Virus record (IMG/VR): IMGVR_UViG_3300029258_001145
Coordinates: 1 to 52,284 of that record
From: a virus
Direction: 5' to 3' (one strand)
Length of the DNA: 52,284 nt
Of this stretch, positions 1 through 52,284 are shown piece by piece. The notes beneath the pieces were generated by a model. That model did not search any database. It was given only the letters and a program-made list of their open reading frames with translations, and had not been told where the DNA came from. The position numbers and the translations under genes were made by a program. The stretch's first letter is position 1, and each line of letters opens with the position of its first letter.

Positions 1-144
1 AGCTGCCTACAGCCCGTTGTGTCGCCGAGAAACAGGGTTCCTGAGAGCATCCACCAGCCTTCGTCTCTGACCTTCGACAGATCATGGCCCTTGGCTGGGC
101 CCCGGAACCAGTGGGCCCCAAAATCGACGCCCCTTTCGGCCAGT
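1..144. repeat. Terminal direct repeat, left copy (circular overlap)
   Basis: These 144 bases recur without a mismatch at 52141-52284. The repeat lies inside a glycosyltransferase reading frame that continues through the junction without a break, so the unit genome is 52,140 bp. It is either assembly overlap of a circular or circularly permuted molecule, or less likely a true short terminal repeat, because it sits inside a gene far from the terminase genes. Confidence 0.95.
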
Positions 145-386
145 CCCTCGAAAAATCCCTCACAGTTCTCGTGAACGAAGGCATCTACGTCGATATATAG
201 CAGTGGGCCCGTGTGCTTCTGCCTCATCTCGCGCAGGAAAACCGGCTTGTACGCTGTGTTGTCGTACCAATCGCCCCGGCTTTCGATAGCCGTGATTTCA
301 TGTTCCATCCCGACCTGTTCAAGTGAGGCACGGAACAGTTCCGCCTCATGGGCGTAGTCCGGGGTATGAAAGGCGATGGTTAGCAT
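1..386 (-). CDS. Glycosyltransferase, N-terminal part (gene continues at 51834-52284)
   Basis: The ATG at 386 begins a frame that runs off the left edge and continues in the other window end, giving about 230 residues when circularised. The N-terminus (MLTIAFHTPD) reads as a Rossmann-like strand. A D-V-D motif follows a hydrophobic strand at residues 64-68 (YIDVD), as in metal- and nucleotide-sugar-binding DXD sites of GT-A glycosyltransferases. The start overlaps the stop of the GT9-like gene by 7 bp. It probably transfers a sugar from a nucleotide sugar to a surface glycan or virion protein; the acceptor is unknown. Confidence 0.75.
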   Translation of the reverse strand, partial: MLTIAFHTPDYAHEAELFRASLEQVGMEHEITAIESRGDWYDNTAYKPVFLREMRQKHTGPLLYIDVDAFVHENCEGFFEGLAERGVDFGAHWFRGPAKGHDLSKVRDEGWWMLSGTLFLGDTTGCRQ

Positions 387-1201
387 GGAACCATGTGTTG
401 CACCGCACTCAGGACCGGCTCGGTCGAATACCACGAGTCATGCAAGAGCCGGATCGGTGAGTGTGTGTGGTTCGCTTCTCGGTAGCGTTCGATTTTGACG
501 GGCCAGTATTCCGGCTCCATCACCGTGCCGTGTTCGTCGGTCACGGGGCCCGGAGCGACAATGCCATTGGCGTGTGTAATCATCAGAAGAGGCCGACCAC
601 ACAACACGGCGAGATGCGCCAGACCCGCGTCGGTCGCCACCACCAGGTCCGCCGAGAGCATGGCCTCAATCGTCGCATCCAGGGGACGGTCATAGTCCCA
701 GGCTTTCTCACAGTCCACATCATAGGATGAATCTGGAGCCCCACCGGCAAAGACATCATATCCCTTCGCCCGGAGCCTGAGTGTTAGTTCTGGCCAGTGT
801 TCCCAGTTCTTCTCACTGCCGTATTGCCGCTTTCGGGGACAGACGACGATATCACAGGAGATGTCCTGGGTTACGTGCGGTTCGGGGATGAAACGCTTCT
901 TGGGCCATTTCGCGTCAGGTTTCACGATCTGACAACCCGGGATGTCTCGCATGGCCGCTCGTTCCATCCGTTCGACGTACTCTGCGTCTCGCGCATAGCG
1001 GTTCCGACGTTTCGAGTCGTCTTGTCGGTCAATCACAAGCCATTCTTCGGCACTCGGGTACAGTGCTTCCATACCCGGCTCGATGAACACGATCTTGCGC
1101 CCCGATACCGCATGAACGGCGGGCACATGCCACCACACGAGCATTCCAAACTCGGCGCGAAGGGCGGGGATGACGCTAGGCGGCACGGTCCACCCGTCCA
1201 C
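380..1201 (-). CDS. GT-B glycosyltransferase, GT9/heptosyltransferase-like
   Basis: This 273-residue protein has the C-terminal layout of family 9 glycosyltransferases: a strand with an NWEHWPEL-like segment near residue 130, then ATDAGLAHLAVLCGRPLL near residues 189-206, the nucleotide-sugar-binding signature of ADP-heptose/LPS heptosyltransferases. The N-terminal half is short compared with cellular heptosyltransferases (about 330-350 residues). The start overlaps the HNH gene end by 26 bp; an internal ATG at 1144 is an alternative. It belongs to a run of sugar-modifying genes in the late operon. The donor sugar cannot be told from sequence. Confidence 0.7.
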   Translation of the reverse strand: MDGWTVPPSVIPALRAEFGMLVWWHVPAVHAVSGRKIVFIEPGMEALYPSAEEWLVIDRQDDSKRRNRYARDAEYVERMERAAMRDIPGCQIVKPDAKWPKKRFIPEPHVTQDISCDIVVCPRKRQYGSEKNWEHWPELTLRLRAKGYDVFAGGAPDSSYDVDCEKAWDYDRPLDATIEAMLSADLVVATDAGLAHLAVLCGRPLLMITHANGIVAPGPVTDEHGTVMEPEYWPVKIERYREANHTHSPIRLLHDSWYSTEPVLSAVQHMVPC

Positions 1202-1814
1202 AACGCTTCCAGTAGCGTTCCATATTCACCCGGTTTACACACGATCGGTGGTAGTGATCGGGACCACTCAACACCATGTTCTTGAGATCATCATACTGTT
1301 TACAGAATTTGCACGACCTCCAATCTGGGTTCCCGCAGGCATCCCGCGCCCTCTGTCGCGCATGGAGGAGGTGGTGGTAAGCATTGTCGGGACAAATCAC
1401 CAGGTTTTCGTCCCGGTTGTCCTTCCGGTCCCCATTCACATGATGAACCTGTTCGGGGAACCGGAGGGTACGCCCAAGGGCCTCCTCTGCAACCAAAATG
1501 TGTTTATGCACATAGCCGTTGCTGTGCGCCCTCGGGTGGACGGGCATCCATTCCATAATGTAACCGTTGTGCTCCACCTGCCCGACCGGCAGGCCAGACC
1601 TCTTGGCTCCGTGGCCCCTCACAAAACGCTTGGGTTCACCCTTGATCCAACCACGCGCCGCCCTCGTCTGCTCGGCGACTTGGGTTTCCTGCCCACACCC
1701 GCATTGGCAATAGCCATACGGAGTCGCCCCCCCGGCTTCAGCGGGAGTATCCGAAGCAGGCGGTGTGCTGCCAAGAACAGCACCATCGGGTCCCGGTCCA
1801 CCAGGGGGGTTCAT
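1176..1814 (-). CDS. HNH endonuclease, free-standing homing type
   Basis: The 212-residue protein contains an HNH_3-type core with the string HHVNGDRKDNRDENL: paired histidines, central Asn and a following Asn-Leu. A CQCGCGQET zinc-knuckle-like stretch lies near residue 35, and a second Cys pair (CKFCKQ) near residue 170. The ATG at 1814 overlaps the upstream TGA by 4 bp. Such genes are mobile nucleases often lodged between phage structural genes. Here it sits between a small hypothetical gene and a glycosyltransferase, and its 3' end overlaps the latter's start, which suggests insertion. Confidence 0.8.
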   Translation of the reverse strand: MNPPGGPGPDGAVLGSTPPASDTPAEAGGATPYGYCQCGCGQETQVAEQTRAARGWIKGEPKRFVRGHGAKRSGLPVGQVEHNGYIMEWMPVHPRAHSNGYVHKHILVAEEALGRTLRFPEQVHHVNGDRKDNRDENLVICPDNAYHHLLHARQRARDACGNPDWRSCKFCKQYDDLKNMVLSGPDHYHRSCVNRVNMERYWKRCGRVDRAA

Positions 1815-2191
1815 GCGCTCCTCCGATTCTTCCGCCTGCGGACCTCGTCGGTGTCCCACCTAACCCTCACGCCACCACTCAGGCGGTCGTACACGAAACC
1901 GTCTTTGTCGGTAACCACCTCATCGGCCGGACTCATCCGAAGAACCTCAACCCAATCATCGTCCAGGTCGTAGGCGACAACGTGTTCCAACTCCCGCCCA
2001 TGCCGAAAAATCTTGATCGGCTCGTGGCAGTTGTCGGGGTTGATCCGACAATCCAGCCGCCTGGGCACGGTGTCGTCAGAATGGAGCCATGACCGAAACC
2101 GCTCTAGCGGATTGTGGGACGCGAAGCCCGCCCAGAACCCACCGAGCGCAGACCACGAAGCCACACCCCGGACAAACTCTTTCCTGTTCAT
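1811..2191 (-). CDS. Hypothetical protein with TAT-like N-terminus
   Basis: 126 residues, no recognised family. The N-terminus (N-R-K-E-F-V-R-G, then an Ala/Trp/Gly-rich hydrophobic stretch) resembles a twin-arginine signal peptide (S/T-R-R-x-F-L-K), but the second arginine is lysine. The rest is soluble and charged, with DCRINPDNCHEPIKIF and an acidic segment near residues 73-90. It overlaps its neighbours by 4 bp on each side and is co-transcribed with the glycan-related genes. Export is inferred only from the N-terminal pattern. Confidence 0.6.
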   Translation of the reverse strand: MNRKEFVRGVASWSALGGFWAGFASHNPLERFRSWLHSDDTVPRRLDCRINPDNCHEPIKIFRHGRELEHVVAYDLDDDWVEVLRMSPADEVVTDKDGFVYDRLSGGVRVRWDTDEVRRRKNRRSA

Positions 2192-2373
2192 GCCGCCCTC
2201 CTGACCAGTGCATCGAGTTCGGCGCCCTGTTTGTCTACCCGACCTAGCCTGCGCCAGCCACGGCCCTGGTAGACCACACCATCGGGTGTGATGCGGATAC
2301 CGCGTTTCCGCCGTGCCGCGATGTACCGCTTCGGGCGGATCTCACGCAGCTCTAGCGTTTTGCCATATGCCAT
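2188..2373 (-). CDS. Small basic hypothetical protein, paralogue of 6354-6542
   Basis: 61 residues. The ATG at 2373 was chosen because GGGAGG lies six bases upstream. The middle shares a pattern with the protein at 6354-6542: L-[ED]-L-R-x, then a [IA]-x-A-R-K-like basic stretch, then D-G-x-V-Y and G-W-R-R. It is strongly basic and likely folds as a small beta unit. The start overlaps the upstream glycosyltransferase by 32 bp. Function unknown; the duplication inside the same module suggests a role tied to decoration or fibre genes. Confidence 0.65.
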   Translation of the reverse strand: MAYGKTLELREIRPKRYIAARRKRGIRITPDGVVYQGRGWRRLGRVDKQGAELDALVRRAA

Positions 2374-2977
2374 CCTGTGCCTCCCAGTGTTGACGTGCCC
2401 AGTTGTTTGGGGGCAGGTCTGAAAGTCTCGGTTTTCCATGGAAACAGACGACGGAATAACCCCTTGCGCCGTCTGCTAGATGATGGGCCTTGTACGATCC
2501 GATCAGGCCCGGGTAATAGACCTGTAGCCTGTCTGCCGTACTGAAGAGCGGGTCCAGGTAACGGTCACTACGCCCCTCAAATGGCGGCGGGTTGTTCTGT
2601 ATCCAGGCCCAGATGTTGCGTGTTGTCGAGCCGTCCCAAGCCAGGACACCCGTTGCCGTCAGGCTCGGGTGGAAAAAGTCGTCAATGCCCGCCAGATTGC
2701 CGTTGTAGTCGAACAAACATGAGGCGTCTCGGACAATGAGCGTGTCCAGATCGAAGAACACATTGCGACCCGTCAGGATGTCCGGTCTCCAGAGTTCGAG
2801 CTTCGACCAGAAACCGGGCCAGTCGTTCTCTAGCGGGATCGTCTCACAATCCAACTCAAGATCCGTCAGGCAGACGAAGTTGTGGGCGGGCAGGTAGCGG
2901 CTACACTGTGTCTGGAGTCGGTAGACCCATTCGGGGGTGAAGACACCACCAGACTTGAGCACACACGCGACGGTCAC
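2342..2977 (-). CDS. Glycosyltransferase with DLD motif
   Basis: 211 residues from a GTG at 2977 that overlaps the upstream stop (GTGA). The N-terminal strand is TVACVLKSGG, and F-F-D-L-D at residues 74-78 gives the DXD metal/nucleotide-sugar site. The length and layout (DXD about 75 residues in, Trp/Pro-rich second half) match compact GT-A enzymes in bacteria and phages, and it resembles the enzyme spanning the window junction in size. Longer upstream starts would overrun the 51-residue gene and look unlike protein. Probably part of the virion or host glycan modification set. Confidence 0.72.
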   Translation of the reverse strand: MTVACVLKSGGVFTPEWVYRLQTQCSRYLPAHNFVCLTDLELDCETIPLENDWPGFWSKLELWRPDILTGRNVFFDLDTLIVRDASCLFDYNGNLAGIDDFFHPSLTATGVLAWDGSTTRNIWAWIQNNPPPFEGRSDRYLDPLFSTADRLQVYYPGLIGSYKAHHLADGARGYSVVCFHGKPRLSDLPPNNWARQHWEAQDGIWQNARAA

Positions 2978-3138: not shown

Positions 3139-4917
3139 TCATATACGCAGGATCGAAATGGGGTTCGGTGCAAAGGTGAAGGCGGTATGGCACGTCCCGC
3201 CGATATTTGCCACTTCACTCGTGTACGGACTTCCTGAAATCGCCGTACCATCCAGGGTGATAGCAACCGAGTCCGTACCGCCAGACGTGGGGGTGTAGGA
3301 ACAGGTGTACGTGCCGTCCCCAACATCAGTCACGGTCGGGGTTGCGGTGTTCGCTCCTGTGACGGAGACGACGACCGTACAACCGCCGACGGTCAGATTG
3401 TTGCCGAAGATGTCCTTCGATTGGATCGTGATAGATGTGACCGCGCCAACCTCGCCCTCGGCCGGGACCGTGGCCGTCGAATCGGTGGCGCTCGGGATAA
3501 ACCTCTCTAGTGCGCTCTGGATATTAGACCACTGACCGGCTGTGAGATTGGTTCCGGCTGGTTTGGCTACACAAGCACCCTCAAGGAAGCCGGAGGCACC
3601 AGATCCGCCGCCACTATACGACATAATTGTCAGATCGAGTGCGTTTGTCGTGGAAGCAACATCTGCCGTTCCGGGAGAACCGGAGCCCGTGGTGTCAATA
3701 CTTACCTCCACCTCGTCCGCAGAGGCGTCCCGCTCTAAACCAAGGCAGTATCTTTGATACAGCGTAAGCGTGCCGTAAACATCTTCTGCCGAGGTAGCCC
3801 CATCTGAACACTTAGCATGAGCCGCGTCCGCGGCCGATTTCGCCAGTACAAGTCCTGGGTTTCCTGTCGCCGAACCGGCCTTCTTTGCTACCAACGCATC
3901 AGTACCCCCCGCTTCTGCGTTTGCAAATACGGCGGCCAACACCGCATCTTCGTCCGCAAAGTCGAGATCGCTGCGGTTGGGCACCACCACATAGTGACTT
4001 CCCGCACCCTGTAGACAGTTGCGGTTGATGATGTCCATGACGAAGCCGGAGGCACTTCGGGCCGGGGTCCAGTCTTTCGAATAGGCGTCGGTATAGGCCG
4101 ACGTCATACCCGGTGTGAAGTCCGTGGTATTCGTGAAATCGGCGTAGGCCACCGTGTCTACTGAGGGGGCGCCGCCATCGGTGTAGACGTCGATACTCTT
4201 GACGTACTTGTCATCGAAATTCGATTGGGCACCGCCCAGGACGAGGTTGCCGGAGCCGTCCGTCGTCTCTTCGCCCGTCGCCGTCGAATCGTCCATGTAC
4301 GTGACGGTGTAGTCGTAGGCCGTCGAATTGGAGAGCCCGGAAACCGTCCACGCATTGTCCGCCACACCAGAGGCCCAATAGACCTGGCCAGTGACCTCGT
4401 GGCAGACCGGGTCATTGGCGGTGGCTCCTGTAGCATTGATGGTGACGGTGAGGGCTGCATGAGACTCGGTAAAACTCGTGTCGCCCACAGAGAGGCCGGA
4501 GAACTCCAGCAGCGCCACCGTGTTTACGCTCGGGGCACCGCCATCCGTGTAGACATCAATCGTCTTGACCCAGACCCCATCGAACTCTGGTTGTGTGTTC
4601 CCCAGGACAAGATTCCCGGAACCGTCCGAGTCCTCCGTGCCGGTATCCGTCGTATCGTCCGAATACGTGACCGTGAAGTCGTAGGTGGTAGAATTGGAGA
4701 GCCCGGCTATCGAAACGTTGTTGCTCGCCGCACCGGGGAAATAACAACCCACGGTCCCCGACCAGCTTTCTGCCACAATACAGCGTTTCGCACTCCCAAA
4801 ATGTCCGTGATGACCGCCGAGTTCGCCTTCCCAGAACAGGCGCGATGAATCCAGCTTGTCTACATGGAGAAAGAGCTTGCTGACCGCATCGTCGATGACT
4901 TCCGAGTAGGCGCTCAT
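3139..4917 (-). CDS. Fibre/decoration-like protein with repeats, LamG-like middle and filamin-type Ig domain
   Basis: 592 residues. Two tandem copies of a beta module lie at about residues 67-150 and 188-270, each with SGLSNST-like, DGSGNLVLG and IDVYTDGGAPSV segments. The region around 285-470 looks like a concanavalin/LamG-type fold. The C-terminal 100 residues (SKDIFGNNLTVGG..., VGDGTYTCSYTPTSGG, SGSPYTSEV) match the filamin-type Ig repeat pattern. Such mosaics are typical of phage surface or host-binding proteins. It lies downstream of the portal gene rather than with the tail tip, so it may be a head decoration or side fibre. ATGA coupling joins it to the upstream gene. Confidence 0.65.
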   Translation of the reverse strand: MSAYSEVIDDAVSKLFLHVDKLDSSRLFWEGELGGHHGHFGSAKRCIVAESWSGTVGCYFPGAASNNVSIAGLSNSTTYDFTVTYSDDTTDTGTEDSDGSGNLVLGNTQPEFDGVWVKTIDVYTDGGAPSVNTVALLEFSGLSVGDTSFTESHAALTVTINATGATANDPVCHEVTGQVYWASGVADNAWTVSGLSNSTAYDYTVTYMDDSTATGEETTDGSGNLVLGGAQSNFDDKYVKSIDVYTDGGAPSVDTVAYADFTNTTDFTPGMTSAYTDAYSKDWTPARSASGFVMDIINRNCLQGAGSHYVVVPNRSDLDFADEDAVLAAVFANAEAGGTDALVAKKAGSATGNPGLVLAKSAADAAHAKCSDGATSAEDVYGTLTLYQRYCLGLERDASADEVEVSIDTTGSGSPGTADVASTTNALDLTIMSYSGGGSGASGFLEGACVAKPAGTNLTAGQWSNIQSALERFIPSATDSTATVPAEGEVGAVTSITIQSKDIFGNNLTVGGCTVVVSVTGANTATPTVTDVGDGTYTCSYTPTSGGTDSVAITLDGTAISGSPYTSEVANIGGTCHTAFTFAPNPISILRI

Positions 4918-6542: not shown

Positions 6543-6997
6543 AACCACTCCTTGGTCGGTGCGCCCAACAGTTCCCTGGTCCAACCACTCATTGAGCGCA
6601 CATTCACGAGTTGGTCTTTGTTCTGCTCCCACCACCCATGATGAGAGTCCGCAGGAAGCCACCCTCCTGGCCGCCTGAGGTGCGGGCGCTTGTCCATGGG
6701 CATCCCACACAGGACAACCTTGTCCGCGAGTTTCAGCGCCTCTAGCACGGCGGCCGCGCCCGACGATCCACCACATTCAGGCGCGACAATCGCCTCGTGG
6801 TCATCGTTGCCCGTCCGGTGCGAGCGCCACCAGTCCAGCTTTTCGCCGTGCATTGTGACCCAGACGTCGATATCGTGCGGGTAGAACACGCCCGTCTCGT
6901 TCACAACCACGACCAGCCCGTCCCACGGTCCGAGATCGGCCAGCCTCATCAGGTCGTCAGCCAGACAGTCGGCCGACCCCAGGACAGCCGCCTTCAT
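6539..6997 (-). CDS. Rossmann-like hypothetical protein, paralogue of 49908-50273
   Basis: 152 residues. It begins with a strand-loop-helix unit (MKAAVLGSADCLADDL), followed by VVVVNETG and a P-x-x-I-D-V-W-V-T-M-H-G-E pattern. The same order (G-x-x-x-C-x-x-D-D, then I-A-I-N-K-V-G, then P-x-x-L-D-H-W-I-S-L-H-P-E) occurs in the protein at 49908-50273. A GGSSGAAAVLEALKLA segment follows. The fold suggests a nucleotide- or sugar-nucleotide-binding protein; the two copies flank the fibre/glycan block. No precise family name. Confidence 0.65.
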   Translation of the reverse strand: MKAAVLGSADCLADDLMRLADLGPWDGLVVVVNETGVFYPHDIDVWVTMHGEKLDWWRSHRTGNDDHEAIVAPECGGSSGAAAVLEALKLADKVVLCGMPMDKRPHLRRPGGWLPADSHHGWWEQNKDQLVNVRSMSGWTRELLGAPTKEWL

Positions 6998-8490
6998 GCT
7001 GCCTCCCGCTCAATCGGCACAATGTTCAACATTCCATCATTCGCGATTCTCTCCCGGACCAACTCACGGTCGAAGTTTTCGGGTAGCCACTCACCGGCAA
7101 CGAGCGCATCCCAGAACGTGTCCAGGTCGAGCTTGCCCTCACTCACCAAGAGAGAGAGCGCATTGACCTGTTCGGCGGTCATCTGTTGGGCATGGAAATC
7201 GCGGTTAAGCCTAATCGTGCCGGGCTCCGCTTTCCGCAGGAGGCCCACACTCATCAACTCGGCATGGGCCCCGAGCGCATTGTTTAGACAGTTTTCTTCT
7301 GCACTAACGGCCGTCATCAACGCCGAATCAGACTCTCCCTTCCGCAGCAGGTCACTCGTAGCCGTCTGTTGGTTACTGGTCTGCGGACTGGGCCTGGCCA
7401 TCAGAAGGGAGAGACCGAGTGTGGCCATTCTCTGTTCGGTGTCTCGTAGGTCTTCGCGGGACTCACTCAGCGCCTCACCCGAATAGACAACCCACTTCAT
7501 GTCGGCATCCGAACCCGTAGCACGGAATGCCTCTGCCTCTGAGACCTTGATCTCTTCGTCGTCAGGGAAGTCTTTCAGGAACAGCAGCGGGATGTGGGCA
7601 ATGGTCCTTGACTTCTCGCGTTCACTCTTGAGTTCGAAATGGCCGATATTCTCATAGGCCAGGTCGAGGAGTGGCGGTTCGGCCTCAAAAAAGCCTGTAC
7701 GCCGGAAGTAGAACGGGAACAACGGGATGTAGCTGAGCGACACATCGCCCCAGTCCACCATCTCCCAACGCAACGGGTCAGAGCGTTCTTGCCACACCTC
7801 GAATGAGCCCGGACGAAGGACGCGGTAACGTGTCACATCCTGCTGGCCATAGGCCCCAACAGGCTCGATCTCCGATTCCTTGAATACGGCCAGCGTCAGG
7901 ACGGGTGAGCCGTTTTGAATTTCCCACTGCCAGTTGATAAGGTCTTCGAGTTGAACATGAACCCAGAATGGCCGGATGTTCCCACGCTGGAGTGCGGCCC
8001 TCGACCTACGGGCACCATCGTCCCAGACCTGCGGATAATCGACATAGACAAAGCTGATGCCGTCCAGACCACCGGCCGTAAAGACATCCTTCGCAAAGGA
8101 CGCCAGGTCCCGGCCGGCCAGGTCGATGTTCTTGGTGTGCTCCAGGATGTCAGGACTCGTCTCCTCGGACAGGATCGGGTCCTTCCGGTAGACCATGCCC
8201 GTCAGACCGTCGGCCGTGCGGCGGGTCGCATTGAAAAGCCGTGCCTTGCCCAACCGCTTTTTGTAGCTGACTTCGCTTTCACGCTTCAGTCGGGGTAGAT
8301 AGGGTTCACCCTTTGTTCGCATGTGGGCCGTACCGCGATAGACGTCACGAACGACCTGAGCAAGCTTCCACTGGTTCTTGTGGGAATCGCATTCGTAGTC
8401 CGGTCGGTCGGCTTCGCCAATATTCGAGTCGACGACTACACGGGTCGCCTGATCGGCTTGTTTGTCTCGGAGATCCTGCGAGTACGGCAT
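6994..8490 (-). CDS. Portal protein (DUF4055 type)
   Basis: 498 residues, usual length for siphovirus portals. It has the DUF4055-like layout: N-terminal KRESEVSYKKRLGKARLFNATRR-type region, TADGLTGMVYRK near 95, a FYFRRTGF segment mid-protein, a LAYENIGHFELKSE helix near 290, and a conserved late segment QTATSDLLRKGESDSAL. It forms the dodecameric ring at the capsid vertex through which DNA enters. It lies directly after the large terminase (TAG abutting ATG), the classical packaging order. Confidence 0.88.
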   Translation of the reverse strand: MPYSQDLRDKQADQATRVVVDSNIGEADRPDYECDSHKNQWKLAQVVRDVYRGTAHMRTKGEPYLPRLKRESEVSYKKRLGKARLFNATRRTADGLTGMVYRKDPILSEETSPDILEHTKNIDLAGRDLASFAKDVFTAGGLDGISFVYVDYPQVWDDGARRSRAALQRGNIRPFWVHVQLEDLINWQWEIQNGSPVLTLAVFKESEIEPVGAYGQQDVTRYRVLRPGSFEVWQERSDPLRWEMVDWGDVSLSYIPLFPFYFRRTGFFEAEPPLLDLAYENIGHFELKSEREKSRTIAHIPLLFLKDFPDDEEIKVSEAEAFRATGSDADMKWVVYSGEALSESREDLRDTEQRMATLGLSLLMARPSPQTSNQQTATSDLLRKGESDSALMTAVSAEENCLNNALGAHAELMSVGLLRKAEPGTIRLNRDFHAQQMTAEQVNALSLLVSEGKLDLDTFWDALVAGEWLPENFDRELVRERIANDGMLNIVPIEREAA

Positions 8491-9930
8491 CTAATAAATC
8501 TCCAAATGGCACGAGGAGGCGGTTTTCTTTTTGGTCAGAACGCGGTAGCGGACCTCATCGCCGACATGGTCTTCGGCGTCGGTGTCCACGTCATCAAGGT
8601 TCTTGTCCGAACGCGGAAGGGTCGGCACCGTGCGAATGAATTGCCGACACGTCTCGAAGACCCAAAGGCCGGGTTCCTCGGGACGGTCCTCTGATGCCGC
8701 CTGAAACATCCTGCGCATTGCCTGCCAACCCTGGACCCGGCTTCCGGGCCGCTTGTCCGAGGGCTCGAAGCGAGCGCCATTCGCGGCCAAAACAGCGGCG
8801 ATACTCTTGCCGCCGGCCTCTTCATTGAAAATCGAGGCATCGGCGGGTCCGGGTTTGACACGCTTCCGCCAACCCCAATCGGTTTCCCGTTCGACAATGC
8901 CCTGCGCAATTAGGGGGTCAGTCATACGGAGCCCCACATTCGGGTTCTTGCCGTCCCAGCCGTACCACTCGCCGATGCGGATGAGTGAGCCACGCGGGAA
9001 GAAAAGCGTTGTGCCGTCATCCCGGACCGCCACTGTCCCATCACTCTCGGCCCAGAGACCATAGGAAAACGGCTTAGTTGATCCCCAGTCGAAAGAGCGG
9101 TCGATGCGCCAGGATTGGGGGATCGGGAATGGCCGCAGGACATGCTTGTCATGGTCCCAGACATCATCGAACATGCCTCCGGCAACAATGTCCCAACTAC
9201 CATCGAGCCACGCCTTTTCCTGTTCTGGATTTGCTGCCGCTGCCGCGATCTTCTTCGGATAGTCGGGCTCCGCATCGAGCAGAATCTTGTTTTCTGACCA
9301 GTGCGCGTGGATGCGAACTCGCTTTAGACCATCGTCGCCCGTGACCACATGACCCGCAGGGGCCGGGTCGATGAAGTACGCCTTCACGACATTGTGGCCC
9401 ACGCCGTATGGGTTTGCTGTCCCCCTGTACTTTCTCGGGACATCTGGATGGGATGACCGATTGCAGGACTTGAGCATGTGGTAGAGATCGAGGCTGGGCC
9501 ATGTCGTCAATTCGTCCCAGCCAATGAACGGAAACTCGTGCCCGTGGTAATCCGTCCAATAGTCGGCCTCGCGTTTGATGTGGCGAAGCAACAACTCCTC
9601 GCCCTCGGGCCAGACCCACTTGTACTCCTGCGCCGATTCCTTGAAACGTGCCTCGGGAAAGATCCGGGAAAACCAACGTCGGCTCTTGACTACCAACTCG
9701 CCCAACGCCTTGTAACTCTGCCGAAAGATGACGCCACGCCACGCTGCACCGTATCCCGCCCCGCAGTGCTGGGCAAAGTCCATCAACAGACAATCGGTCT
9801 TGCCGGGACCGCGTGTCCCCTCGATCAATGCTTCGTAGATCGGGCAGGTTAGAAAAAGCTCTTGGCTGCCAGGCTGTGGTTGCCATACGACGTTAGGCCC
9901 CCTTGCCATTGCCACGTTTTCCGTTCCCAT
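8491..9930 (-). CDS. terL: Terminase large subunit
   Basis: 479 residues. Walker A is G-T-R-G-P-G-K-T at residues 38-45 and Walker B is F-I-G-W-D-E at 135-140, giving the packaging ATPase. The RNase H-like nuclease acidic residues are visible in FDWGSTKPFS (near 280), GPADASI (near 370) and the C-terminal DHVGDEVRY. The enzyme cuts concatemers and pumps DNA into proheads with the portal. The ATG at 9930, after GGGGG, overlaps terS by 38 bp; an in-frame ATG at 9909 is an alternative. Confidence 0.95.
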   Translation of the reverse strand: MGTENVAMARGPNVVWQPQPGSQELFLTCPIYEALIEGTRGPGKTDCLLMDFAQHCGAGYGAAWRGVIFRQSYKALGELVVKSRRWFSRIFPEARFKESAQEYKWVWPEGEELLLRHIKREADYWTDYHGHEFPFIGWDELTTWPSLDLYHMLKSCNRSSHPDVPRKYRGTANPYGVGHNVVKAYFIDPAPAGHVVTGDDGLKRVRIHAHWSENKILLDAEPDYPKKIAAAAANPEQEKAWLDGSWDIVAGGMFDDVWDHDKHVLRPFPIPQSWRIDRSFDWGSTKPFSYGLWAESDGTVAVRDDGTTLFFPRGSLIRIGEWYGWDGKNPNVGLRMTDPLIAQGIVERETDWGWRKRVKPGPADASIFNEEAGGKSIAAVLAANGARFEPSDKRPGSRVQGWQAMRRMFQAASEDRPEEPGLWVFETCRQFIRTVPTLPRSDKNLDDVDTDAEDHVGDEVRYRVLTKKKTASSCHLEIY

Positions 9931-19118: not shown

Positions 19119-20236
19119 GGATTTTCTTTTCGCCTCTCTTCGAGCCCCCTCAACAGCTCTTCGGCTTGGGCACGGTCGAAGTGGACATACCGGCCATCAA
19201 GCATTTCCTCCGTCGTGCCCGCCTGGAATTTCCGACCCGGTAGGGCCTGGCTATCGGTGGCGAACGCTCGTTTCAGTGAGTGGTAGCCACGCTGTTTCTT
19301 CCGAGGTACTTCCGCCCGCCTCTCGGCTTCCCGGAGGAACTTGTAGAGCGGTGTCTTCGTGATCGGCCCGTCGGCCCCCGGGAACAAGTGCTCGCTTCCA
19401 TACGAACGGCAGCCTTCAATAAGGACCCGGACAGGCTCCGGTATTAAAGCCGCGCCCGCATTTCCGACCTTGTCCGTCTCGGGTGGGAAGTGAATCACAT
19501 TGCCGTCGATATCGTCCCAGCGGAGTTGCCGGATACTGGACATCCGTCTACCCGTCCAGTAGGCGATATGGGCGATGGTCCCGGCCCGCAGGTCTACCTC
19601 GACCAAGGCGGGGAGGAGTCGCGTCAGCTCGTCCCGAGAATACGCCTCGCGCTTCTGGTTGAGTTTCGGGAAGCGGAGTCCTTCGAGTGGGCTCTTGTCC
19701 AACCAGCCCTCGCGGACGGCCCAGGTCAATGCCTCTTTGATGTACCGCAGGTAGTAACGTTGGGTCGTAGCACCCCAGCCCTTCTCGGCTGTACCATCGG
19801 CCACACAGCGCCTCACAAGCGCCGGGGACACGGCGGTCAACACCTTGGCCCCCCCGAGCGCCGACGTCCACCACAGGCGGTAGTGGGCCTGCTCCTGACG
19901 GTATCTGTCCGACCATTCGGACTCCCGGTCTCGGTGAAGGGCCTTGAGTAGTTCGCCGACCGTCTTCCCGCCCTCATCCCGTACATAGTTGTCGGCATAC
20001 TCGCGCCAGGTCCGGCGATGTTCTGCGGCCACCTTGTCGGCCACCCGGCGGGCGAGCTTCCGGTCTTTCGCCGTCTTCGCCAGCATCGGGAAACCGAGAA
20101 TGGTGCGCGTCGAAACCTGGACCCGCTTCTTGCCCAGCCAGTACTCAATCTGGAGGATACCGCCGCGCTTCCGCTCGTAGATGACGACACGGTTTACACC
20201 CCGCTGGCCCGCTGAGTAGCGAAATAGGTCTGACAC
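19115..20236 (-). CDS. int: Tyrosine recombinase integrase
   Basis: 373 residues. An N-terminal domain with basic strands is followed by a SAM-like core-binding domain (~90-190) and the catalytic domain. The box I arginine lies in GRRMSSIRQLRW (near 230). Box II reads Y-H-S-L-K-R (318-323), with Lys at the place of the usual second Arg of H-x-L-R. The nucleophile is probably Y350 in GRYVHFD. It integrates and excises the prophage. A tRNA-end-like sequence 1.2 kb upstream may be attP. Confidence 0.9.
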   Translation of the reverse strand: MSDLFRYSAGQRGVNRVVIYERKRGGILQIEYWLGKKRVQVSTRTILGFPMLAKTAKDRKLARRVADKVAAEHRRTWREYADNYVRDEGGKTVGELLKALHRDRESEWSDRYRQEQAHYRLWWTSALGGAKVLTAVSPALVRRCVADGTAEKGWGATTQRYYLRYIKEALTWAVREGWLDKSPLEGLRFPKLNQKREAYSRDELTRLLPALVEVDLRAGTIAHIAYWTGRRMSSIRQLRWDDIDGNVIHFPPETDKVGNAGAALIPEPVRVLIEGCRSYGSEHLFPGADGPITKTPLYKFLREAERRAEVPRKKQRGYHSLKRAFATDSQALPGRKFQAGTTEEMLDGRYVHFDRAQAEELLRGLEERRKENP

Positions 20237-29138: not shown

Positions 29139-29588
29139 TTGACGACGTTCACGGAGCGGTTCGCGAAGGTGGTTGAAGCCAAAGGACCGGAGAAACAGGT
29201 CGTGGCAGAACTACTTGGAGTGGACCCGAATCAGATTAGCCAGTGGTTGGGGGGAAGGAAGCCCAGCCTCGAACACTTGAGCAACATGAGCAAGAAGCTC
29301 AACGTCTCCGGGCACTGGCTCCTGACCGGCGAGGGCACAATGGATGACACGCCCGAGGAGGCACAGAAGAAACTCGGGGAACTCGAACGGAAACTAGCTG
29401 AGGCTCAGGACATCATTTCTAGGCCATCAGACGCAGAGCCTGGTTCCGTGGATGTCCTCCGGCGCGCTGGATTGCTTCCCTCAGATAAAGAGCCGGACTC
29501 GGAGGACGAGAGTACACAAACCGAAGATGATGATGATGACCCAGAAGCCGAGCCATCTGGTAGCGATCCAGTTCCGGCCCGAGGATGA
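29139..29588 (+). CDS. Cro/CI-type repressor
   Basis: 149 residues from a TTG at 29139 with AAGGG about nine bases upstream. The helix-turn-helix is KQVVAELLGVDPNQISQWLGGRKPSLEHLSNMSKKLNVS, followed by WLLTGEG, as in XRE/CI repressors. A short coiled coil (EEAQKKLGELERKLAEAQ) then leads into a highly acidic disordered tail (EDDDDDPEAE). It has no LexA-like peptidase domain, so induction is not by RecA-driven self-cleavage. Its last 170 bp overlap a minus-strand gene. It probably maintains lysogeny. Confidence 0.82.
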   Translation: MTTFTERFAKVVEAKGPEKQVVAELLGVDPNQISQWLGGRKPSLEHLSNMSKKLNVSGHWLLTGEGTMDDTPEEAQKKLGELERKLAEAQDIISRPSDAEPGSVDVLRRAGLLPSDKEPDSEDESTQTEDDDDDPEAEPSGSDPVPARG

Positions 29589-42099: not shown

Positions 42100-43248
42100 C
42101 TATGCAGCCATCTTCGTTATGTGGACCGTGTAGCCGGTCGTCGCGTCCTTCGACGCCTCCCACTTCACGTTTTCCATGATGTCCGAGTCGATGCCCGGCG
42201 TCTTCGTGTCATCGTCCGCGAAGTAGATGCAGGGCAGGTGGACACCATAGGCATTGCCCGCCGTATCCTGGAACGCGAAGAACAGTGCTGACTGCGTGTG
42301 GGCCAGCCACTTCGTCTTGATGTCATTGTTCGCGAAATAGAGGCTGATCGTGCCCTCGGCCGTGACCGTGCCAAGCCCGATATCGTTCGGATCAGTCGAG
42401 CCACAGACGTCCTGGCTACGCAGCGGATTCGTGATGTTGATGGTTGCGCCCGTCACCGTGACATCGGCGGGCGTAGTGCCCTCCCCCACAATGACTAGGT
42501 TTGAGACCGCATTCATGATCTTCGTTGAGGTCGCTGCCGTGGGAGACCCCGTTCCAATCGTTGAAGAGTCAACGTTTTCGGTGTTGCCCATGAATGGGAA
42601 CGAGACCGAAACCTTGTCTTTTGCCTTGAACGACAGGTCCATCCCCCCACACCGGCAGCCTAGCCAGTTGGAAAAGACGTTCGTGAGGTCGGTATGTTCG
42701 CGCTCGAACGAGAACGACCGAGTCTCTGTGCCGTTCTTCACGACAGCACCCGAGATGGTCACACTTTGACCGGCACTCTCGGTCGTTGCGGGATTCGGGT
42801 AGACGCCGAGTGCGCCAGCGGCGGCGGCCTCGACGTAGTAGACGCGGTTCAGGCTCGACGCACTGAAGCCGCTGACCTTGACGAACTGGCCGACCTCGAA
42901 CGAGCCGAGGCCACTACCCGAGTCGGTTAACTCGGTGGCCGTTGCGGCAATCGACGTGTCGGTCACCGAGGTCTCGGCCCCGAAGTCGGCCGACCGAATT
43001 GCAGACGTGATGAACTCGTCATACGTGCCGAAACTCAACTCGCCCGGCAGCTCACCGACCGAACCATAGCCAGTCTCGATGATGTCACCACGCTGGGCAT
43101 CACCAACGAGTTCGGCACTCTTCATGGTGCTCTTGGTGCCCTTAAACCCGTCACCCGTGGTACGAAGAATCTGAAGGGCCGATGCGGGCGTAGTGCCCCT
43201 GGTTACCTCTTCGATGTACCGGAAGGCCACAGAAGAACTGTCAGCCAT
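42100..43248 (-). CDS. Major tail (tube) protein
   Basis: 382 residues starting ADSSSVAFRYIEEVTRGTTPASALQILRTTGDGFK, the usual start of siphovirus tail tube proteins, with KSAELVGDAQRGDIIETGYGSVGELPGELSFGTYDEF, and an extra Ig-like domain in the middle. C-terminal KWEASKDATTGYTVHITKM. It has AAAGGAGCAGG before the ATG and lies behind the terminator-like hairpin at 43287-43326. Polymerises into the tail tube. Confidence 0.87.
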   Translation of the reverse strand: MADSSSVAFRYIEEVTRGTTPASALQILRTTGDGFKGTKSTMKSAELVGDAQRGDIIETGYGSVGELPGELSFGTYDEFITSAIRSADFGAETSVTDTSIAATATELTDSGSGLGSFEVGQFVKVSGFSASSLNRVYYVEAAAAGALGVYPNPATTESAGQSVTISGAVVKNGTETRSFSFEREHTDLTNVFSNWLGCRCGGMDLSFKAKDKVSVSFPFMGNTENVDSSTIGTGSPTAATSTKIMNAVSNLVIVGEGTTPADVTVTGATINITNPLRSQDVCGSTDPNDIGLGTVTAEGTISLYFANNDIKTKWLAHTQSALFFAFQDTAGNAYGVHLPCIYFADDDTKTPGIDSDIMENVKWEASKDATTGYTVHITKMAA

Positions 43249-45992: not shown

Positions 45993-46991
45993 CTACCGGG
46001 TCGTAACGATGACGCCGGGCAGCAGCTTGTTGTCCGCTACGACGGTGTCCCAATTCGTAGCCGTGGCAACGTTCGTGTTGGTCGGGTTGACTCCACCATT
46101 CGTGGTGTCCCACTGACAGCCCAGCAGCCCGAGGTTGTAGGCGTACTCGGCCTGCCACCGGAAGAACAGGTTCTCCGATCCAGTCAACGGACCCTCCATA
46201 ACCGCGATGGGCGGCTCGGAGATATCGACCTGGATGGCTCCCTTGCGGAGGCCGAGAATCGAGTACTTGTCCTGGGCCGAACTCACCCCACCCGTCTCAA
46301 CCAGCGAGGTCGAGTCGATGACCAGTGTGGGCCGGTTCAGGGTGTAGGGGTTGGCCTCATAGAGCGTAGCACCGATATCGGTGGAGCCCCAGATCGTGGC
46401 CGTCGAAGCGAACTGTGCGGCCATCAGATCGAAGTACTGAGCCGAGTGCATGACCCAGAGCACGACTCCGCCAGCCGAATCCCCAGCCTTTTTCAGGCCA
46501 TTTATCATCGCGGCATTCGTGATGGTGGACGCCGTGTTGTCGTACTCCAGTGCGGCAATGCTGTCGAGCTTGGCTTCGCAGGCGGCGAGACCCCGGTCGA
46601 TCATCTCTTTCGGTACCGCAACGGCGGTCTGTTGACCGATGACACGACTGAAGCCCCTCGGATCGAAGCCCTTCTTGCGCTGGGCGTCGATGTTGACCTC
46701 GTAAGGGCCATTCCGGCGGTTCAGCTTGACACTGATGAACTCGTCCTGCGTCAGTGCAGTCGCAGTGACGGTGTCCGAGGACTGTTTGGAGATGTCCCGC
46801 CTGGCGATGGCACTCACCTCATCCCACATCGCCTCCTTCTCGTAGTGCCCGAGAAGGGAGCGGGTGTTCAGGGTGATCGCGCCAGCGGAAGCGGCGTTGA
46901 ATGCGGAAACATTCTGGGCAAGCGTCTCGATGAACCCGCCCTGGAACTGTTCGTCAACAATGACGTAGTTGGCATAGGTAGAGGTAGCCAT
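45993..46991 (-). CDS. Major capsid protein
   Basis: 332 residues. ATSTYANYVIVDEQFQGGFIETLAQNVSAFNAAS, LLGHYEKEAMW, then AACEAKLDSIAALEYDNTASTITNAAMINGLKKAGDSAGGVVLWVMHSAQYFDL and NRPTLVIDSTSLV match the family annotated major capsid protein 13-like (HK97 fold). The order scaffold, capsid, connector supports it. Confidence 0.9.
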   Translation of the reverse strand: MATSTYANYVIVDEQFQGGFIETLAQNVSAFNAASAGAITLNTRSLLGHYEKEAMWDEVSAIARRDISKQSSDTVTATALTQDEFISVKLNRRNGPYEVNIDAQRKKGFDPRGFSRVIGQQTAVAVPKEMIDRGLAACEAKLDSIAALEYDNTASTITNAAMINGLKKAGDSAGGVVLWVMHSAQYFDLMAAQFASTATIWGSTDIGATLYEANPYTLNRPTLVIDSTSLVETGGVSSAQDKYSILGLRKGAIQVDISEPPIAVMEGPLTGSENLFFRWQAEYAYNLGLLGCQWDTTNGGVNPTNTNVATATNWDTVVADNKLLPGVIVTTR

Positions 46992-48192: not shown

Positions 48193-49227
48193 TTACCCCT
48201 TCGCCCGCAATTCTTCTACCCTGACGGTTGAGCCGTCCGAGCGGACCATATCCCGCAAGGACACCTTGCCAGAGCGGAACAGTTCGGCACGGCCCTTCCC
48301 GAGGATTTCCACCTGTTTGGTTTTCGATTGCTGTTTCAGCCATTGTTCATAGTTGATACCCGCCTTGACGGGGCCCGTCTCGGTTGCCCGCTGGCCGTAA
48401 CCCGAATCATCGACGCCAGACACAACGGGGACAATCCGACTCCTACAGCCCCAATGCTGGGGTGGGCGTTTGGCGTTTGGGTCATCGAACTCGAACTCTT
48501 GCCCATCCAGTGCCATACAGATCGGCGTTGTCCTTGAATCGAGGGTCGCATCATAGCGGTAGCCATCGAGGATATCCTTGTTTGCCTCGAAGCACCGGAA
48601 ATGCGCCCCACCAACCACATGACTGGTCGCCGTCCTGACCAGGCTCGCAGCGTCCCGGGTCGATATCTGCATCACACCACCCTCATAGACGCCCCGCCTC
48701 ACATACCGTCCCCGGACCCGGCGGATCATGTCATCTATCGTTTCGCCGTTCGCGATGCCGATACGAATTTGCTGGGCCGCCCGCCTCGTGACCTTTTCGC
48801 CCTGCTCTTTCCAGAAGTCCTTCAACAACCCACCCTGCACGAAATCAGTATCAATGACCGACTTCATGATATTGATGCCCGTGGGACCCGCTCCAATCGC
48901 CACACCGACCCCCGAAAGATCCCGTAGGTAACTGGCGGCCCACTCTCCCTGGAGTACACCAATTTCCGCCAGTTGCTGTCGGACCTCGCGATGAATGACC
49001 TTGAACGCCTCGCGTGAATCGGCCCTGATCAGCTTCAGCCATTTCGCGACCCGTTCATCACGCCAGCGTTTCGATTTGGGCGCTGTCGGGTCGATCTTCG
49101 CGAGCTGCGCCACCATCTCATCAATCAGGTCTCGGATCAGAGCAGAGGCATCCGCCACAACGCCATTCTGGAGACGTTGCACATTGAGCAGGTTGCGGAC
49201 GTAGGTCTCGGCAGGGTCGTTAGCCAT
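48193..49227 (-). CDS. Minor head protein, MuF-like
   Basis: 344 residues. The MuF core lies in TRDAASLVRTATSHVVGGAHFRCFEANKDILDGYRYDATLDSRTTPICMALDGQEFEFDD with P-P-Q-H-W-G-C-R-S-R-I, the conserved His/Cys/Arg end of PF04233. It is a minor capsid protein near the portal, possibly injected with DNA. Here it is separated from the portal gene by the fibre and glycan module, which is unusual. Confidence 0.87.
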   Translation of the reverse strand: MANDPAETYVRNLLNVQRLQNGVVADASALIRDLIDEMVAQLAKIDPTAPKSKRWRDERVAKWLKLIRADSREAFKVIHREVRQQLAEIGVLQGEWAASYLRDLSGVGVAIGAGPTGINIMKSVIDTDFVQGGLLKDFWKEQGEKVTRRAAQQIRIGIANGETIDDMIRRVRGRYVRRGVYEGGVMQISTRDAASLVRTATSHVVGGAHFRCFEANKDILDGYRYDATLDSRTTPICMALDGQEFEFDDPNAKRPPQHWGCRSRIVPVVSGVDDSGYGQRATETGPVKAGINYEQWLKQQSKTKQVEILGKGRAELFRSGKVSLRDMVRSDGSTVRVEELRAKG

Positions 49228-49735: not shown

Positions 49736-49911
49736 ACCCCCACCCAAACCGGCCCGTCTTCTTCGTCCGTTGCCGGGATCTCCAGGAGGTCAACACGCCG
49801 GGCAGACTCCCCACAGTCATTGCATGGCACCTCATCGGGAACCACGTCAGGATCGAACAGCCGATACGTACTGTGACCGTTCTTGCACACAAACTCGAAG
49901 ACCTCTTTCAT
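49732..49911 (-). CDS. Zinc-ribbon protein, 59 aa
   Basis: The ATG at 49911 overlaps the upstream stop; the stop overlaps the metallopeptidase ATG. MKEVFEFVCKNGHSTYRLFD and VPCNDCGESARRVD give C-x-x-x-H and C-x-x-C, an FmdB-like small zinc ribbon. It is too short to appear in length-limited gene lists. Function unknown. Confidence 0.6.
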   Translation of the reverse strand: MKEVFEFVCKNGHSTYRLFDPDVVPDEVPCNDCGESARRVDLLEIPATDEEDGPVWVGV

Positions 49912-50273
49912 TGGTATCCCTCTCGTTCAATGACGTCCGCTAGTTGGATGCGGAACCATTCCTTCTGGTGGGGCGAAAGCACGGAACCGAGGCCGGCACT
50001 CAGCCGGCCAGAGCGTACCGCCTCCTGTCCAAAGGCCAGGAACGCGAGACCAAGCCGTTCACCGTTCTTCTCGCTGTCTGGTGGGCGCTTCTCAAGCCAT
50101 TTCTTTCTGATAAAGTTTTCCGGGTGCAGGCTGATCCAGTGGTCGAGTCTGCCGGGAACCATCCAGCCGACTTTATTGATGGCTATCGTCACGACAGGTC
50201 CCGAATAGAGCTTCCGGAACGCCTTGACATCGTCCCAGACGCAGACAGCACCACCGTAGATCAGGCCGACCAC
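49908..50273 (-). CDS. Rossmann-like protein, paralogue of 6539-6997
   Basis: 121 residues from a GTG at 50273, six bases after AAGGA; an ATG at 50291 is an alternative. VGLIYGGAVCVWDDVKAFRKL, VVTIAINKVGWMVPGRLDHWISLHPENF lines up with the protein at 6539-6997. Placed directly after the pyruvyl-transferase gene, it may bind a sugar nucleotide or assist glycan transfer. No formal family. Confidence 0.62.
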   Translation of the reverse strand: MVGLIYGGAVCVWDDVKAFRKLYSGPVVTIAINKVGWMVPGRLDHWISLHPENFIRKKWLEKRPPDSEKNGERLGLAFLAFGQEAVRSGRLSAGLGSVLSPHQKEWFRIQLADVIEREGYQ

Positions 50274-51274
50274 ATCAGATCCTTCAGCCAATCAACGGCC
50301 ATACAACGCTCACGAAACAGTTCACGCTCCGCGTCAAGTCGCTCTGTGACCGAATCGCCCATAGGCTCCATATCCAGATTCGGCGCAATCTCGTCGCGGC
50401 CCATGATCTGGACTGTGGCATGGCCCTCTAACCCCAGCCGCTCGATAGCTACATCCATGGTCTCGGCCTTGTCGGTCGGATAGATCAACTGGGCTGCTGC
50501 ACCATGGACGACCGAAGGCACAAATCCATGAATCCGTGTGCCGATGTAGTAGCGGCACCGCGAATAGAGCTGGTACATATCCCGGTAGTCTGACGAACAG
50601 TAGACGTATTCGGGACCGAACAATTCCTCTGCGGCGCGGATCTCGCGGTTATCGTGGACCGTCACGACCTTTGGCCCGTCCATTGCCTCGAACGCCGCGA
50701 CCATCGCATCATCGAGTTGCTTGGACGGTCCACCATCCCGCAGAACGTGGTGGCGGTTGCCATCATTCGGCCCGAGTCCCATGCCGCGATAGCCGATAAT
50801 GTTCAGGTCACGGTCGCCCCCCAACGGCTTGCAGAACAACGCTGGATCGCACATGGTCACGGAGTCGATGCCCCAGGCGTCAAGATAGCGAGGCGCGATG
50901 TTGTCTCTCGTGATGGCAATATCAACGATTCCGGCCCGCGCCACCGCAGCCATCAGCGTCGAGTGCTCGTCGTTCAGGAAGCCGCCCGTCCGACCGACGC
51001 CTAACAGTGCAATAGGCTTCTGGGCCGACATGCAATGCCGATAGATGGCCTCATTTCGGTCGATCCACTCAGGAGTACCGGCCATGATGATGTAGTCGGA
51101 CAACTCCAGGTTGACCTTCAGGGAGTTGGCGAACATCGACCGGATACCCCAGCCACGGTTCCACCACAGTGTCCGTACATCGGGCTTCAGATTCAGGCAT
51201 CGTAAAAGCCCCTCCCGAATCCAATCATCGCCACAGTTCCATAGCGAAGAAGTCGAGAGTAGGACGGTTCTCAT
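50261..51274 (-). CDS. Polysaccharide pyruvyl transferase-like protein
   Basis: 337 residues. STSSLWNCGDDWIREGLL at the N-terminus and G-T-R-I-H-G-F-V-P-S-V-V-H-G near 252-265 are the hallmark ends of the PS_pyruv_trans family (PF04230), with ALLGVGRTGG and YCSSDYRDMYQLYSRCRYYIG in between. The family adds pyruvate ketals to sugars using phosphoenolpyruvate, making them acidic. 4-bp overlap with the sulfotransferase gene. Confidence 0.8.
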   Translation of the reverse strand: MRTVLLSTSSLWNCGDDWIREGLLRCLNLKPDVRTLWWNRGWGIRSMFANSLKVNLELSDYIIMAGTPEWIDRNEAIYRHCMSAQKPIALLGVGRTGGFLNDEHSTLMAAVARAGIVDIAITRDNIAPRYLDAWGIDSVTMCDPALFCKPLGGDRDLNIIGYRGMGLGPNDGNRHHVLRDGGPSKQLDDAMVAAFEAMDGPKVVTVHDNREIRAAEELFGPEYVYCSSDYRDMYQLYSRCRYYIGTRIHGFVPSVVHGAAAQLIYPTDKAETMDVAIERLGLEGHATVQIMGRDEIAPNLDMEPMGDSVTERLDAERELFRERCMAVDWLKDLMWSA

Positions 51275-51837
51275 ACGTATCTCAGCCTCACCATCATAGC
51301 ACCACAGATGTCCCAGAATGTCCGCTTGTGGACTTCCGACCAGTCGTCATAGACCGGGAATGCGTGTGCCGACACGTTGGCCGGTTGTAGACGTTCGCGC
51401 TCCCACTGTACCATGTTCACTGTTTTGGCACCCAATAACGTGGCGCACAGTTTGAAGGCATCGAACTCCTGGATTAGGTCTTCAAGGCGGAACCTATGGG
51501 TGTCGGGTATATCACGCATCATCTTTTCGTTACGCTTGGTCCACGTCGTACACGACTGCTCAAATGGCCAATCGGGTATGTCTACCTTCCTTGTCATTAC
51601 GCTGCGCAGTACCTTGCGACCATCACGCACCTGATGTACCACAGCAACACCGGGATAGGTGTGGCGTAGAAGACTGGAGTCTCTCCAAAAGTTGCCATTA
51701 GATTCGACACCGCCAAAACTCTGACCCAGGCTTTTCCCCATCGACTCATGCCGTGCATCTAAATCGGTACAGGCCGTAAGGGCGCGGGCTATCCAGGTCG
51801 TACCACTCCGACCGTGTGCCAAAACAAAGCCTTTCAT
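51271..51837 (-). CDS. Sulfotransferase-like protein
   Basis: 188 residues. The 5'-phosphosulfate loop is H-G-R-S-G-T-T-W at 8-15, and the 3'-phosphate region is V-R-D-G-R-K-V-L-R-S-V at 70-80, both needed to bind PAPS. The C-terminal region (HRFRLEDLIQEFDAFKLCATLLG) has the conserved R-x-E-D-L helix. It is short compared with typical cytosolic sulfotransferases (~250-300). It would transfer sulfate to a sugar or tyrosine on host or virion. Coupled to GT and pyruvyl-transferase genes. Confidence 0.8.
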   Translation of the reverse strand: MKGFVLAHGRSGTTWIARALTACTDLDARHESMGKSLGQSFGGVESNGNFWRDSSLLRHTYPGVAVVHQVRDGRKVLRSVMTRKVDIPDWPFEQSCTTWTKRNEKMMRDIPDTHRFRLEDLIQEFDAFKLCATLLGAKTVNMVQWERERLQPANVSAHAFPVYDDWSEVHKRTFWDICGAMMVRLRYV

Positions 51838-52284
51838 GCTACCAGCTTTCGTAACCCCATGATATAGTTGCGCCGCGTTTGGTTCACGCGCCCGTGGAAG
51901 GGGCCGACATGGTTGGTCGGTGGTCTGTGCTCCCGACTCGCTATCGAGTGCTCAATGATGACCGGCTCATCCGTATCGTAGGCCCACGGCTTGTCGAACA
52001 CCCTACAATAGCAGCCCGGCAACCGTTCAACCTTCAAGTGTTCAAGACACGTCACGAGGTACCAAAGATTCTTCTGGCCGCCGCCCTGTGTGACGCCGAT
52101 CTGACGCATGAAGCGGTTGAACATGACCCATGTGTCGAGGAGCTGCCTACAGCCCGTTGTGTCGCCGAGAAACAGGGTTCCTGAGAGCATCCACCAGCCT
52201 TCGTCTCTGACCTTCGACAGATCATGGCCCTTGGCTGGGCCCCGGAACCAGTGGGCCCCAAAATCGACGCCCCTTTCGGCCAGT
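51834..52284 (-). CDS. Glycosyltransferase, C-terminal part (gene continues from 1-386)
   Basis: Same gene as 1-386; bases 52141-52284 are duplicate sequence. In this end the frame continues through DTWVMFNRFMRQIGVTQGG and ERLPGCYCRVFDKPWAYDTDEPVIIEHSIASREHR, ending LRKLVA. The His-rich ending (HVGPFHGRVNQTRR) fits GT-A enzymes in which a late His completes the metal site. 4-bp overlap with the sulfotransferase gene. Confidence 0.75.
   Translation of the reverse strand, partial: LAERGVDFGAHWFRGPAKGHDLSKVRDEGWWMLSGTLFLGDTTGCRQLLDTWVMFNRFMRQIGVTQGGGQKNLWYLVTCLEHLKVERLPGCYCRVFDKPWAYDTDEPVIIEHSIASREHRPPTNHVGPFHGRVNQTRRNYIMGLRKLVA
52141..52284. repeat. Terminal direct repeat, right copy
   Basis: Exact copy of bases 1-144 (see that entry). 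Confidence 0.95.

Follow-up and report, generated by a model that had tools for sequence, protein, structure and literature searches.

The Gtr serotype-conversion cassettes, which use GtrA and GtrB plus a membrane glycosyltransferase, are one form in which temperate phages carry glycosyltransferases. In phage P1 (Punavirus) a glycosyltransferase, PmgQ, is encoded beside a sialyltransferase-like gene among the late genes; pmgO-pmgP-ppp-pmgQ are labelled 'putative morphogenetic', and the P1 pmg genes are nonessential (PMC10695390). In Citrobacter phage phiNP a similar sialyltransferase-like/PmgQ pair lies upstream of terS-terL-portal. In mycobacteriophages (Che8, Rita and relatives) phage glycosyltransferases glycosylate capsid or tail proteins (PMC11256854, PMC12619734). 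Here we describe a cassette in IMG/VR virus record IMGVR_UViG_3300029258_001145, the whole 52,284-nucleotide stretch of which is referred to below as the window. The cassette combines glycosyltransferase genes with a sulfotransferase (ST) gene and a gene of the polysaccharide pyruvyl transferase family (PT), a pairing that appears to be undescribed in phage.

The P1 genes and the phiNP pair are the nearest annotated isolate counterparts of this cassette. Its glycosyltransferase with a DLD motif is a true homologue of P1 PmgQ (cassette profile, E 3e-38) and matches the glycosyltransferase family phrog_1962 at E 4e-31, and the small cassette proteins weakly resemble PmgO; similarity of the family of one of them, ROSS, to P1 PmgO and PmgP (GT42-like) is weak, as is its hmmsearch match to PmgO. 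Unlike the window, neither P1 nor phiNP has an annotated sulfotransferase, pyruvyl transferase, GT9 protein or counterpart of the junction glycosyltransferase (GTj) described below. Che8-type virion glycosylation follows the same logic, with several phage glycosyltransferases, one of them fused to a methyltransferase domain, but its enzymes belong to different families and share no common descent with the cassette. The cassette has no glycosyltransferase homologous to Che8 gp108-110, and no sulfo- or pyruvyl transferase is annotated in the Che8 stretch viewed. The Che8 analogy is functional only, because the glycosyltransferases are unrelated. Gtr cassettes are similar in that a temperate phage carries glycosyltransferases, but unlike them the window set includes no membrane protein: no transmembrane segments were found in the window cassette proteins, in which the maximum 19-residue hydropathy was 1.5.

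Pfam, sequence motifs and the predicted fold all identify the 188-aa gene product as a sulfotransferase. ST scored 32.0 bits against PF13469 (cut-off 27) and contains a 5'-phosphosulfate-binding P-loop, GRSGTTW, and a 3'-phosphate-binding (3'-PB) motif, VRDGRKVLRS, with G9, S11, G12, T13, R71-D72-G73-R74 and R78 invariant among six homologues. An AlphaFold2 model with the six cassette homologues as input had a predicted local distance difference test score (pLDDT) of 86.9, and Foldseek searches with it ranked tyrosylprotein sulfotransferases (TPST) first (E 5e-6, prob 1.00), followed by a bacterial sulfotransferase, heparan 3-O-sulfotransferases, SULTs and StaL. When the six homologues were combined into a profile, it matched TPST in the PDB at E 8e-4. 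In this alignment the P-loop and the invariant E31 lie ungapped on TPST 'RSGTT...GEET', and the 3'-PB region 'RDGR..s...RK' is shared. The GEET glutamate opposite E31 is taken to be the catalytic base of TPST. ST has the fold and the binding motifs for 3'-phosphoadenosine 5'-phosphosulfate (PAPS) in common with TPST and PF13469 sulfotransferases, but at 188 aa it falls short of the length of the TPST chains that it matched (273-333 residues), to which identity is 15-18%. PAPS-dependent sulfation by ST is probable on these grounds.

PT, of 337 aa, scored 35.6 bits against PF04230 (cut-off 25.3) and 23.9 bits against the TIGR03609 CsaB equivalog, far below the 213.1 cut-off, and is not a CsaB equivalog by that model. 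Its predicted model (pLDDT 88.9) has a GT-B-like two-domain fold. In CsaB, R148, H308 and K328 are critical to phosphoenolpyruvate (PEP) binding, and R306 has been implicated by docking (PMC10435577). PT R247, H249 and K269 match CsaB R306, H308 and K328, with an H-to-K spacing of 20 in both; R247 and H249 (R-I-H) are invariant and K269 near-invariant among ten homologues, and R123 is the presumed counterpart of CsaB R148, by motif only. The R-x-H of PT also aligns with that of Escherichia coli WcaK. PT is thus similar to the ketal-pyruvyl transferases CsaB, WcaK and Pvg1p in family, R-x-H...K pattern and fold, although these enzymes act on a cell-wall polymer, an exopolysaccharide or a yeast N-glycan and the sequence similarity of PT to them is remote. 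Conservation of the PEP-binding pattern relative to CsaB, together with the WcaK alignment, makes PEP-dependent pyruvyl transfer by PT likely. The enzyme families of the cassette are secure, and profile searches, motifs and structure models support placing the 188- and 337-residue proteins in the families named by the original prediction, which was made from the letters of the window, rather than in unrelated ones.

Of the remaining glycosyltransferases, the GT9 heptosyltransferase-like protein scored 25.5 bits against PF01075 (cut-off 22), and its profile matches heptosyltransferase II (1PSW) at E 2.5e-4. GTj had no match in a Pfam scan, but homologues of it were present at 15 IMG/VR loci. 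For PT, GTj and ROSS, PDB searches by sequence alone were uninformative; matches to antibodies and trafficking proteins were noise. The record has an exact 144-bp direct terminal repeat and so closes into a circle of 52,140 bp, and its circularity is supported by GTj being one 230-aa open reading frame (ORF) that spans the repeat. A 21-kb contig from another metagenome (L027, IMGVR_UViG_3300017987_000422) is 100% identical to the window over the 10.6 kb compared, and so is a partial assembly of the same phage. The minus-strand genes begin with the large terminase subunit (TerL), portal and ROSS, followed by further structural ORFs, a Ser/Thr-rich protein and the DLD glycosyltransferase. Small ORFs and an HNH endonuclease separate the latter from the GT9-like gene, after which come GTj over the join, ST and PT, and then a 127-aa ORF, MuF, capsid and tail genes (Table 1). 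The cassette is not a single unbroken block, because structural genes and the HNH endonuclease are interspersed. All five enzyme genes of the original prediction were recovered where it had placed them, as was its continuation of the set across the junction, and the 4-bp overlaps that it reported between GTj and ST and between ST and PT are exact, each ATGA. Its placement of the set between portal and MuF is exact in the window, where the set is bordered by portal, MuF, capsid and tail-tube genes in the same orientation, but did not hold as a general rule for the other lineages below. A promoter and terminator scan of the 49-52 kb region gave a site count not above that of shuffles.

Recurrence was examined by IMG/VR scans with ST, PT, GTj and GT9, in which near-identical contigs were merged and sulfotransferase types were assigned by profiles built here. 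The core set occurs in 12 lineages: the window and loci L002, L003, L013 (= L004), L014, L015/16/18, L017, L019, L021/22, L023, L024/25 and L026. The grouping of the cassette is not due to chance, since it is repeated in 11 other lineages and the L027 partial assembly is identical to the window. A sulfotransferase of type ST1, ST2 or ST3, the last below the Pfam cut-off, is present in 10/12 lineages. PT is present in four (window, L002, L003 and L013), and a whole-record search returned the same four carriers; absences are soft, because several contigs are fragments. In every carrier PT follows a sulfotransferase, ST1 in three and ST2 in one, with a short ORF between them in L003. ROSS homologues are found in most cassette loci. 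The cassette ORFs are intact, with catalytic motifs conserved at 32-60% identity across several lineages. A PF04230 gene also directly follows GT9 in two further distant phage lineages (L047 1402-3410, with a 4-bp overlap, and L048 7310-9820); a GT2-like gene was also observed at the L048 site. In L019 (10717-11778) a 353-aa protein consists of an FkbM-like methyltransferase domain fused to ST1, and in L002 GT9, GTj, an FkbM-like gene, ST, PT and an epimerase lie in one run, the epimerase reaching 268.4 bits with the ADP-heptose 6-epimerase equivalog model, whose cut-off is 274.6. Taken together, these linkages connect sulfate, methyl and pyruvate transfer with a glycan assembled with a heptosyltransferase-type enzyme. 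Searches of 50,697 catalogued phage genomes, isolate phages included, returned nothing for ST, PT, GTj or GT9, and no paper in the literature library searched combines sulfotransferase, polysaccharide pyruvyl transferase and phage, in agreement with the statement in the original prediction that no described phage system was known to have both acid-adding enzymes.

Across these lineages the neighbours of the cassette are packaging or structural genes, and the phages are of several unrelated packaging types. The window and L014 have it between portal and MuF, whereas it comes after portal in L004 and after both portal and MuF in L022. In L002 and L026 it lies between terminase and portal, the terminase of L002 being a different one. 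It precedes portal in L003 and a GpA-like terminase in L017 and L018, and in L024 it follows the tail genes. Turnover within the cassette is recorded by the 127-aa ORF that follows PT in the window, in which a ROSS-type N-terminus runs into the C-terminal end of a second type of sulfotransferase, 54.5% identical over 44 aa to the C-terminus of L004 ST2. This chimeric ORF is, by its sequence matches, a recombination footprint, and the ST2 remnant implies that an ancestor probably had a second sulfotransferase, as L014 still has. That either ST1 or ST2 can occupy the slot before PT points to selection for a function rather than for one gene.

Table 1. Positions of the cassette genes and flanking features in the window.
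Feature	Position	Strand	Basis or remark
Junction glycosyltransferase GTj, 5' part	1..386	-	Single ORF on circularised sequence
GT9 heptosyltransferase-like protein, 273 aa	380..1201	-	PF01075
HNH endonuclease inside cassette	1176..1859	-	PF13392, several PHROG HNH families
DLD glycosyltransferase, PmgQ homologue	2342..2977, inside ORF 2342-3112	-	phrog_1962
Ser/Thr-rich (22.8%) acidic Filamin/immunoglobulin (Ig)-repeat structural protein, candidate glycan acceptor	3139..4917	-	PF00630, composition
Small cassette-associated protein ROSS, 152 aa	6539..6997	-	4-bp overlap with portal
Portal protein (flank)	6994..8490	-	About 31% to annotated portals
Terminase large subunit TerL (flank)	8491..9930	-	About 55% to proteobacterial siphophage TerL
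Tail tube	42100-43248	-	Structural gene beyond MuF
Major capsid protein	45993-46991	-	Structural gene beyond MuF
MuF head protein (flank)	48193..49227	-	PF04233
Remnant fusion, 127-aa ORF: ROSS-type N-terminus and ST2 C-terminus	49908..50291	-	Sequence match
Polysaccharide pyruvyl transferase family protein PT, 337 aa	50261..51274	-	PF04230
Sulfotransferase ST, 188 aa	51271..51837	-	PF13469, motifs, predicted fold
Junction glycosyltransferase GTj, 3' part	51834..52284 (52141-52284 repeats 1-144)	-	DVD motif, 230 aa in all

From family, motif, fold, operon coupling, recurrence and linkage to structural genes we infer probable catalytic activities, the identity of the sugar, an acceptor and a benefit. 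In the reading that we prefer, and to which we attach an even chance, a modular cytosolic cassette would furnish virion proteins with acidic glycans that probably contain heptose. Two or three glycosyltransferases (the PmgQ-type enzyme, GTj and the GT9 heptosyltransferase-like protein) would build a short, probably heptose-containing glycan in the infected cell, to which PAPS-dependent ST and PEP-dependent ketal-pyruvyl transferase PT would add sulfate and pyruvate, making it polyanionic. The acceptor would most likely be one or more virion proteins, such as the capsid, the tail tube or the Ser/Thr-rich Ig-repeat protein, a homologue of which adjoins terminase in L004, and progeny particles would end up with an acidic sugar coat. 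Accessory glycosylation of virion proteins fits, because the enzymes are soluble and encoded in the late region beside virion genes and the P1 relatives are nonessential. Acidic surface sugars set the adhesion of particles to cells, sediments, mucus and antibodies. A phage that could sulfate and pyruvylate its particle, or its host, would add a modular system of new chemistry to virion glycosylation, for which mycobacteriophages provide the experimental examples; it would point to a function for pmgO-pmgQ of P1, which are uncharacterised, and offers testable sulfo- and pyruvyl transferases. The broader proposal, that there is a widespread, uncultivated class of phages whose heptose-based virion glycans bear both sulfate and pyruvate ketals by way of a swappable head-module cassette, is made tentatively, as something short of an even prospect; no other phage system is known to unite the two acid-adding enzymes, and this one would be the first.

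Several findings weigh against virion glycosylation by the cassette. The sulfotransferase assignment has modest scores, with some relatives failing to reach the Pfam cut-off. The top Foldseek matches of the PT model are generic GT-B enzymes, and membership of PF04230 does not prove pyruvylation. The Che8 enzymes offer an analogy from unrelated families. GT9 enzymes are classically those of the lipopolysaccharide (LPS) core, and the closest cellular homologues of PT, in metagenome-assembled genomes of Planctomycetota, Verrucomicrobia and Omnitrophota, lie in chromosomal envelope-polysaccharide loci with GT9/GT4-like and flippase-like genes, both of which fit a host LPS acceptor.

Late remodelling of host LPS is accordingly a serious rival, although we consider it rather unlikely. 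Late in infection the enzymes would modify lipid A-core, or some other glycan of the envelope, on the cytosolic side of the inner membrane, and the added heptose, sulfate and pyruvate would allow progeny to avoid re-adsorbing to debris, or would exclude rival phages. Both GT9 and ADP-heptose are part of the synthesis of the LPS inner core, and L002 carries the ADP-heptose 6-epimerase-like gene. Temperate phages are well known to bring about serotype conversion, and the window phage appears to be temperate, from an integrase-like gene (19115-20236, slightly below the Pfam cut-off) and a helix-turn-helix regulator (29139-29588). However, the cassettes occupy the head or tail module of many unrelated phages rather than a moron position, the window set has no membrane glycosyltransferase, flippase or polyprenyl-linked gene, and lysogenic expression from a late operon would be unexpected. 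Of the virion and the host surface, between which the original prediction did not choose, the virion is favoured by linkage to the head module in unrelated phages and by the lack of membrane genes. The homologues of PT had also suggested Planctomycetota, Verrucomicrobia or Omnitrophota as the host, an idea that we rejected: those homologues are in chromosomal envelope loci, GTj was found in only 2/392 genomes of one such phylum, and TerL is nearest to that of proteobacterial siphophages.

It is improbable that ST instead sulfates a virion protein directly, on tyrosine or serine, with the glycosyltransferases and PT forming a separate activity. TPSTs are indeed the best structural and profile matches of ST, with agreement that includes the 3'-PB region and the ungapped match of E31 to GEET, but these matches are remote, 3-O-sulfotransferases and StaL are close behind, and ST is always found among glycosyltransferases and is once fused to an FkbM-like domain.

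Decoration of modified bases in phage DNA by the transferases would have precedent, since base modification that relies on glycosyl- and sulfotransferases has been reported or predicted for phages (PMC10829341, citing Iyer 2013), but we judge it very unlikely, as no supporting enzyme turned up. There was no Tet/JBP match in 16 cassette records, a weak negative given that the control was also silent; among 20 further window proteins, mostly early and structural, there was no hydroxymethylating or C5-methylating enzyme, only an N6/N4 methylase; and the cassette is not beside replication genes. As a separate observation, C5-type DNA methyltransferase-like ORFs lie upstream of the structural genes of one cassette phage (L004 414-1383). 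That the cassette is unselected or decaying cargo, acquired horizontally and now without a role, is the least probable explanation of all: the ST2 remnant fusion, the HNH endonuclease within the set and the nonessential P1 relatives are compatible with it, but the intact ORFs and the conservation of catalytic motifs at the identities given above, in several lineages, speak against it.

Some further features of the window and the related records were noted. Adjoining the cassette, window positions 5440-6354 encode a protein with an extended stretch of Glu-Pro dipeptides and, after it, a domain weakly similar to polysaccharide lyases (PF14099, below cut-off). A GDGE-motif protein of relatives resembled GT-D enzymes by eye and had no Pfam or NCBIfam match; that identity is not claimed. 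In L003 (10497-12334, minus strand) a ParB-like gene adjoins a PAPS-reductase-like gene (DUF3440-type by eye) near structural genes. A 114-kb viral contig (L043 140-15313) carries a large glycan-biosynthesis-like island with a PF17784 sulfotransferase. Another phage contig (L044 2406-9367) carries NeuB-family (PF03102), PseB-like, cytidylyltransferase-like, aminotransferase-like and sulfotransferase-like ORFs, and may possibly represent a nonulosonic-acid pathway in a virus record.

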